Shown here piece after piece: positions 50,908 to 64,000 of a stretch of DNA of 64,000 nucleotides. The stretch's first letter is position 1. Every line of letters begins with the position of its first letter. A model generated the notes under the pieces. It ran no database searches. It had not been told where the DNA came from and saw nothing but the letters and a program-made list of their open reading frames with translations. The position numbers were made by a program, and so were the translations under genes. This DNA is from Thermoleophilaceae bacterium (GTDB lineage Bacteria > Actinomycetota > Thermoleophilia > Solirubrobacterales > Thermoleophilaceae): positions 1 to 64,000 of the forward strand of contig JAICJV010000009.1 of assembly GCA_025928265.1 (NCBI GenBank). Reading direction: 5' to 3'.

Positions 50908-51014
50908 CCAACGATCTCGACCGATCCTGACGCGGCTTGCCGCCGATGCGCCGACGCGCGCGACGGATCGCTCGATCTCGTTGATGCTCCTTGTGAGGTA
51001 ATCTCGTTCTGCCG

Positions 51015-51068
51015 ATGCAGTTCCTGCCCGCTCTTCGACTTCTCCTCCTCCCCCTCCGGGGGGAATAG
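51015..51068 (+). CDS. Leucine-rich leader peptide of leuA ([17 protein letters not shown]), putative attenuator
   Basis: ATG CAG TTC CTG CCC GCT CTT CGA CTT CTC CTC CTC CCC CTC CGG GGG GAA TAG: 7 Leu in 17 codons including a run of four, 68 bp upstream of leuA; TAATCT -10 at 50999-51004; hairpin TCCCCC-TCC-GGGGGG at the run. Confidence 0.85.
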
Positions 51069-51135
51069 CGCGTGGCGGCCGCGTAGCCGCAAGACCAGCA
51101 AGGAGAGAGAAGGGCAGCACTCGAAAGGAACAGGC

Positions 51136-52721
<1,586 letters not shown>

Positions 52722-52725
<4 letters not shown>

Positions 52726-62646: not shown

Positions 62647-63573
62647 TTGAGCACCGCGGACCTCATCTGGATGAACGGCGAGTTCGTCGCATGGGATGAC
62701 GCGAAGGTGCACGTACTCACGCACGGCCTGCACTACGGCACCGGCGTCTTCGAGGGCATCCGCGCCTACGAGACCGCCGAGGGGCCGGCGATCTTCCGCC
62801 ACCAGGACCACCTGGACCGGCTCGAGGCGAGCGCGAAGCTCTACTACATGGACCTCCCGTGCTCGAAGGACGAGCTGCGCGAGGCCACACACGAGCTGAT
62901 CGGCCGCAACGGCTTCAAGTCGTGCTACATCCGGCCGCTCGTCTACCGCGGGCACGGCCCGATGGGGCTGAACCCGCTCGACAATCCGGTCGAGGTGATG
63001 GTCGCCTGCTGGGAGTGGGGCGCCTACCTCGGCGAGGAGGGCAAGGTCAACGGCATCCGCGCGCGGACGTCGTCGTGGCGGCGGATCTCGCCGGAGTCGC
63101 TGGTCCCGCACTCGAAGGCGTCCGGCCAGTACCTCAACAGCGTGCTCGCCAAGATCGAGGCGGTGAAGTCGGGTTACGAGGAGGCGATCCTGCTCGACGA
63201 CCACGGCCATGTCTGCGAGGGCACCGGCGAGAACGTCTTCGTGGCGAAGGACGGCGTGATCTACACCCCACCGCAGACCGCGTCGATCCTGGACGGCATC
63301 AGCCGCAAGTCGATCATCCAGATCGCGACCGACCTGGGGATCAAGGTTGTGGAGCGCGACATCGCGCGCGCCGAGCTCGCGCTGGCCGACGAGGTCTTCC
63401 TCACCGGCACCGCCGCCGAGCTCACCCCGATGCGGTCGATCGACGACATCGAGATCGGCCCTCCCGGCGAGATCACGCGCCAGATCCAGGCGATCTTCGA
63501 TGACGCGCTGTGCGGCCGCGCGGAGCAGTACCGCGAGTGGCTCGACGTCGTGCGCGTACCCTCGACTGCGTGA
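62647..63573 (+). CDS. ilvE: Branched-chain amino acid aminotransferase
   Basis: [60 protein letters not shown] start with AAGGAG upstream. Confidence 0.94.
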
Positions 63574-64000
63574 CGCAGCCACAGCAGGTCCAGATCTACG
63601 ACACCACGCTCCGCGATGGGATGCAGGGCGAGGGCATGTCGCTCTCCGCGGAGGAGAAGCTGCGCGTGGCCCACGCGCTCGACTCACTCGGCGTCCAGCT
63701 GATCGAGGCGGGCTTCCCGGCATCGAACCCGAAGGAGGAGGCGGTTTTCGACCTCCTCGCGCGTGAGTCGTTCGAATGCGCCGAGATCGCCGCGTTCGGC
63801 ATGACGCGCCGGCGCGGGATCACCGCCGAAGAGGATCCCGCGCTGCGTCTCCTGGCCGAGTCGTTCGCTCCCGTCTGCACGCTCGTGGGCAAGACGTGGC
63901 GGCTGCACCTCGACAAGGTCACGAAGGTCGACCCCGACGAGAACCTCGCGATGATCGGCGACTCGATCGCGTTCCTCCGCCGCCAGGGGAAGCGCGTGGT
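63570..64000 (+). CDS. cimA: Citramalate synthase / isopropylmalate-synthase-like enzyme, truncated by window end
   Basis: Open frame from GTG 63570 to the edge, not in the ORF track: [57 protein letters not shown]. Confidence 0.85.

Follow-up and report, generated by a model that had tools for sequence, protein, structure and literature searches.

In the leu and ilv attenuators of Proteobacteria, the leucine codons of a leader peptide sense charged tRNA-Leu, and an intrinsic terminator is used. Experimental proof of polycysteine attenuation in mycobacteria reportedly comes from work by Canestrari and colleagues in 2020. In most Actinobacteria, a so-called LEU element is found upstream of leuA, which comprises a leucine leader, a pseudoknot and a base stem between the leucine run and the Shine-Dalgarno (SD) sequence (Seliverstov et al., 2005, PMC1262725). 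That study did not settle how the element acts and proposed a binding protein, and mutations in the leuA leader of S. coelicolor are reported to have effects that are inconsistent with classical attenuation (PMC1262725). In S. lividans, the leaders LeuL1 (leuA) and LeuL2 (leuS) have been mapped as leaderless, and LeuL1 is without a terminator (2021, PMC8079986). Mycobacterial leaderless short ORFs with polycysteine tracts are, in the account available through a later paper, reported to attenuate translation of the downstream gene (Canestrari et al., 2020, cited in PMC9031893).

The element analyzed here lies upstream of leuA in the window, i.e., the whole 64,000-nucleotide stretch of Thermoleophilaceae DNA under study. 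It resembles the LEU element (PMC1262725) in having a leader ORF with a leucine run 5' of leuA, no terminator, and a base stem between the leader RNA and the leuA SD. However, LEU elements contain a pseudoknot that is conserved, their leaders are of the kind of MQRVLLLGRRDGV or VRTARLLLGCRGEGL, and their leuA is type 2, whereas two hairpins (P2 and P3) are here nested in a covarying stem and the gene behind is usually a type-1 leuA. The stem also differs between families. In the LEU element it is formed by the leucine run and the SD, which is also the case in two of the families studied here (f2 and f3), while in the window's own family (f1) and the largest other family (f4) the leader start covers the SD and AUG, and the leucine run pairs with a purine tract upstream of the SD. 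The CCGCGGCGAGG/CCTCGTCGCGG motif of LEU-type loci is absent from the window, and at the phylum's leuA loci of LEU type our wider covariance model R2 gave no significant hit (best E 5.2). Rfam holds no match for the element, leader and T-box families included. As R2 has no significant hit at LEU-type loci, Rfam is without a match and the usual target is the other type of leuA, we set the element apart from the LEU type.

The locus also shares a short leucine leader without terminator with S. lividans LeuL1 (MRFGLLLLSCRGEGL), and leuA and leuS, the targets of LeuL1 and LeuL2, both occur as targets here; sequence and structure differ from both leaders, and LeuL2 has a terminator with a U-tract (PMC8079986). 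With the mycobacterial polycysteine ORFs, as far as they are described in the citing paper, it has in common a short ORF, here probably leaderless, in which codons for the amino acid being made stand in a row, and attenuation there depends on the speed of the ribosome over those codons (PMC9031893). Unlike these ORFs, the element here concerns leucine instead of cysteine, belongs to a different clade and is predicted from sequence. The leucine codons of the leader recall the proteobacterial leu and ilv attenuators, which differ in their use of an intrinsic terminator. The window element would be comparable in its working to the known actinobacterial and mycobacterial leaders, yet it is distinct by sequence and model.

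A further type of leader was observed in another family of the same phylum (f33; L170-L173). Upstream of type-2 leuA, these loci encode leucine leaders (MNRRELLLLT-stop and VIDLAPTLLLLM-stop) with a GC-rich hairpin and then a T-rich tail behind them. They look like classical terminator attenuators, and therefore one phylum seems to hold three designs of leuA leader.

The leader ORF and its promoter

A preliminary description of this DNA had pointed to an unannotated 17-codon ORF with seven leucine codons, placed between a TAATCT -10 box and leuA. The ORF was correct to the base and the -10 box was found ahead of it (Table 1). It reads ATG CAG TTC CTG CCC GCT CTT CGA CTT CTC CTC CTC CCC CTC CGG GGG GAA TAG, with CTT CTC CTC CTC as consecutive leucine codons, and lies 67 nt 5' of the leuA ATG. 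In a scan of the whole window for short ORFs that have an amino-acid run and are preceded, at 7-12 nt, by a -10 box, the leader ORF was the sole match.

Table 1. Features of the leader-leuA region, in positions of the window
Feature	Position	Strand	Remarks
-10 box TAATCT of the leader/leuA promoter	50999..51004	+	10 nt gap to the leader ATG at 51015
Leader peptide ORF	51015..51068	+	17 codons, Leu run at codons 9-12; frame conserved in 87 relatives
P0, 5' strand (leader start codons), complementary to leuA SD and AUG	51015..51025	+	folding, compensatory changes
P1, 5' strand (Leu-Arg-Leu-Leu codons), partner of the purine tract	51030..51046	+	folding; swap test z -6.6 (f1), -9.5 (f4)
Hairpin P2, CCCCC-UCCG-GGGGG, end of leader	51050..51063	+	arms 51050-51054 / 51059-51063; cells 99% paired
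Hairpin P3, GCGGC-CGCGUA-GCCGC, after the leader stop	51075..51090	+	arms 51075-51079 / 51086-51090; 99% paired
P1, 3' strand, purine tract AGGAGAGAGAAGGGCAGC	51101..51118	+	folding
leuA SD region and ATG, P0 3' strand	51123..51138	+	paired bases 51126-51137
leuA, 2-isopropylmalate synthase, TIGR00973 type (type 1), putatively regulated gene	51136..52725	+	TIGR00973

In the window, the transcript is predicted to start at the leader ATG or about 1-4 nt before it. The spacing of the promoter is also seen in the relatives, as a TANNNT hexamer ends 7-12 nt 5' of the leader start in 81 of 87 sequences, compared to 2.4 expected from shuffling. An SD-like sequence precedes only six of the 87 leaders, and the other 81 are without one. 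Because of this -10 spacing and the near lack of an SD, the leader is probably leaderless or nearly so, and across the 87 sequences transcription would begin at the leader start or a few bases from it.

The 87 leaders begin with ATG or GTG and end with TAG, TAA or TGA. Their leucine runs are mostly 4-5 codons long and vary in length by whole codons, and the third base of the leucine codons is variable while the residue is rarely changed. This pattern marks the leader as a coding sequence. Codon choice within the run (56% CTC, 36% CTT, 6% CTG) differs from that of the leucine codons in the body of leuA (48% CTC, 3.6% CTT, 45% CTG). Two C-termini are found among the relatives, LLLLPLRGE and LLLLLPR. 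In the latter form the stop codon is located in the loop of the P2 hairpin (CUCCCCC-GCUA-GGGGGAG), and P2 is thus kept despite the shorter peptide. A search of NCBIfam with longer leader variants gave no match.

Spread across the order and target genes

The leuA upstream regions of the window's family carry the element nearly base for base, and 28 of them were used to build the covariance model R1. This model matches 198 of the 232 genomes of the order, and 104 of the 112 of good quality. With the wider model R2, nearly all good-quality genomes of the order are matched, with weaker hits in further families of the class; several of these have leucine leaders that end in LLLLPR or ILPL before the stop, with leuA behind. 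The leader is in frame in all four families (f1-f4), and about 200 related genomes share the leader, the -10 box, the two hairpins and the long-range stem, with compensatory changes. The preliminary description had let its reading depend on whether the ORF is conserved. Both the leader and its structure are kept throughout the order, and they are seen again 5' of leuA in several families of the class beyond it. Judged by its conservation, the leader is not a product of chance; this status does not come from the window fold alone, and the folding energy of the window sequence by itself is unremarkable (z = -1.4).

Additional weak R2 matches in this genome and in others were rejected as noise, as they consist of short CCCCC/GGGGG stretches and antisense copies of the long stem. 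This genome therefore has a single copy of the element. One locus (L132, genome G167) carries a tandem second copy about 1.1 kb upstream (396-521 and 1519-1655), and no intact leuA is found behind the second copy.

By motif, the genes around the element in the window form a branched-chain amino acid cluster, i.e., ilvC, serA, leuA, leuC, leuD, leuB, ilvE and a citramalate-synthase-like gene. The last of these is a second LeuA-like ORF at 63572-64000 (citramalate synthase type, DTTLRDGMQ), which follows directly after ilvE and has no leader ORF.

Among 60 freshly fetched loci, two of which are from outside the order, a type-1 leuA lies directly 3' of the element in 56. The remaining four comprise two with type-2 leuA (VDLRDGNQAL type; L109, L145), one with leuS, and one where the contig ends too early. 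In the leuS case (genome G102; L131, L175), a type-2 leuA follows about 90 nt after leuS on the same strand, so that the element heads a leuS-leuA operon. Every identified target among the fetched loci is thus a leucine gene, and the same element precedes both type-1 leuA and the non-orthologous type 2. In G102, the stem covers an ATG that seems to open a 15-codon ORF which overlaps the leuS start (ATGA), and this overlap suggests that the two may be translationally coupled.

A covarying stem over the leuA start

When each region from leader start to leuA start was folded separately, one architecture was obtained, in which P2 and P3 are nested in a long stem. In the window, this stem joins 51015-51025 to 51126-51137 and 51030-51046 to 51101-51115. 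The purine tract involved is AAGGAGAGAGAAGGG at 51100-51114, and the leuA SD-like sequence is GAAAGGAAC at 51123-51131, ahead of the ATG at 51136. In f1 and f4, the leuA SD and AUG (GGAACGACAU) are bound by the opening codons of the leader (typically AUGUCGUUCC), and a purine tract of the AGGAGAAC type by its Leu-Arg-Leu codons. In f2 and f3, the leucine run pairs directly with the leuA SD. The loop of P2 varies among relatives between the UUCG, UCCG, UGCG and CUCG type and GCUA(G), which contains the stop codon. Within a 17-nt leuA ribosome-binding site, the mean number of nucleotides paired with the leader in minimum free energy folds was 10 in f1, 10 in f2, 11.5 in f3 and 9 in f4. In these predicted folds, the RNA structure covers the leuA ribosome-binding site.

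Support for the long stem comes from a swap test that does not rely on alignment, where the pairing of each leader with its own downstream region is compared to its pairing with the regions of other members. In f1 the own regions gave a mean of -34.6 kcal/mol and swapped regions -30.4 kcal/mol (z -6.6), and in f4 the corresponding values were -31.5 and -25.4 kcal/mol (z -9.5). There was no signal in f2 (z 0.1), where the paired sequences are nearly invariant, which explains the result. Pairs with changes on both sides numbered 14 on the MAFFT alignment versus 8.5 after shuffling. On the structure-fitted alignment there were 361 double-changed cells versus 128 expected, with the reservation that an alignment fitted to the model favours the structure. 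RNAalifold on the MAFFT alignment returned only P2 and P3, with no covariation, since the 3' strand of P1 is misaligned there; this was overcome by per-sequence folding and the swap test. By these comparisons, the long stem over the leuA start covaries. Both hairpins named in the preliminary description, at 51050-51063 and 51075-51090, were recovered as claimed, and its suggestion that leucine codons pair with a purine-rich tract near leuA describes a real, covarying interaction. The reach of this pairing was underestimated, as the leader start (51015-51025) takes part too, its partner being the leuA SD and start codon (51126-51137).

Some loci depart from the common structure. In L029 (genome G009), an insertion of about 70 nt, built from two hairpin repeats that resemble each other (ATTCGGC..GCCGAAT), follows the purine tract and precedes the leuA SD, and it separates the stem from the leuA start. 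In genus g16 (L023, L024, L026), P3 is re-paired as GGCCGC..GCGGCC and P1 is a nearly perfect helix of 14-15 bp, with an entirely different downstream sequence.

Mode of control

We consider it likely that the element is a leaderless leucine leader peptide that acts by translational attenuation. The transcript would begin at, or almost at, the leader ATG, and the leader start together with the Leu-Arg-Leu region would form a long imperfect stem (P0 and P1) with the purine tract, the leuA SD and the AUG. When leucyl-tRNA is sufficient, the ribosome would quickly reach the stop codon beyond P2 and leave the 5' half of the stem free again, so that the stem closes over the leuA ribosome-binding site and translation of leuA is low. 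When charged tRNA-Leu is scarce, chiefly the isoacceptor reading CUC and CUU, the ribosome would stall in the leucine run, occupy the 5' half of the stem and hold it open, and leuA would be translated. During such a stall, a second ribosome might be queued on the leader start. Four points of this reading are inferences: where precisely the transcript begins, that the leader is translated, that it responds to leucine, and in which direction the switch acts. The leucine attenuator named in the preliminary description is supported to this extent, and its kind was partly known already (PMC1262725, PMC8079986).

To compare the families, the cost of opening the leuA site was modelled with a ribosome blocking the leucine run and with one at the stop codon, using crude free-energy estimates. 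From stop codon to blocked leucine run, the modelled cost fell from 12.7 to 6.3 kcal/mol in f2 and from 16.2 to 7.1 kcal/mol in f3, compared to a decrease from 9.1 to 7.2 kcal/mol in f1 and a small gain in f4 with a single stalled ribosome (7.6 to 6.5 kcal/mol). If the leader start is covered too, as by a queued ribosome, the estimate is 4.4 kcal/mol in f1 and 5.1 kcal/mol in f4, and in both families the leuA site is opened further by a ribosome on the leader start than by one in the leucine run. In this model, plain stalling fits f2 and f3 well, while f1 and f4 may need a queued ribosome, because blocking the leucine run lowers the cost little and covering the leader start lowers it more. We also put forward a broader reading, although we regard it as tentative and more doubtful than probable. 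Here, the element would be a clade-wide switch in which the leader start serves as the anti-ribosome-binding-site strand of leuA, and the two starts would be mutually exclusive. A stall in the leucine run would make the following ribosome wait on the leader start and thereby pin the leuA start open, and the device would be kept while the regulated gene is exchanged (type-1 leuA, type-2 leuA, leuS-leuA).

Classical transcription attenuation with a terminator hairpin could draw on the presence of a leader peptide and hairpins. However, a U-tract, which the preliminary description had also failed to see, is absent from all 87 leader-leuA intergenic segments, and a terminator scan found no intrinsic terminator on the + strand. 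Intrinsic termination is therefore unlikely, and the f33 leaders of the same phylum, with their hairpin and U-tract, provide the contrast. We rejected this form of attenuation as extremely improbable. The earlier alternative of translational control instead of an intrinsic terminator is borne out by the missing U-tract and by the stem over the leuA ribosome-binding site. The lack of an intrinsic terminator would also suit Rho, which has been proposed for the terminator-less cys leaders of the phylum (PMC1262725). Once ribosomes leave the leader, Rho would load on its C-rich RNA, which is poor in G up to P2, and stop transcription before leuA, and stalled ribosomes would prevent this. Such a role of Rho seems unlikely, as it offers no reason for the covarying stem between the leader start and the leuA SD and AUG, and this same pairing buries the C-rich tract in a stem.

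A regulatory protein or ligand might instead bind the structure, with the leader peptide being incidental, as was proposed for the LEU element in 2005. The strong conservation of P2 and P3 and the almost invariant GCGTGGCGGCCGC stretch would agree with this, as would the mutants in the leader codons of S. coelicolor, whose behaviour reportedly does not fit classical attenuation (PMC1262725). However, a binding site does not account for the maintained leucine frame with its synonymous changes and changing stop codons, for a leader start at the promoter-proximal end, or for the codon choice of the leucine run, which is unlike that of leuA. We therefore find this explanation quite unlikely. Collectively, translational attenuation by the leader remains our preferred reading, in the sharper form that the leader itself probably sequesters the leuA start.

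Terminator-less leucine leaders of actinobacterial leuA have been known since 2005, with a mode of action left open and ambiguous mutant data. Here, one structure is backed by compensatory changes across a whole order and has a clear target, the leuA SD and AUG, and therefore a few point mutations would decide the mechanism. The principle is not new, but the case is an unusually clean one and lends itself to testing. It adds a regulatory RNA new to Rfam from a group with few studied members, and it shows that a leader can persist when a non-orthologous gene takes the place of the isopropylmalate synthase gene behind it.
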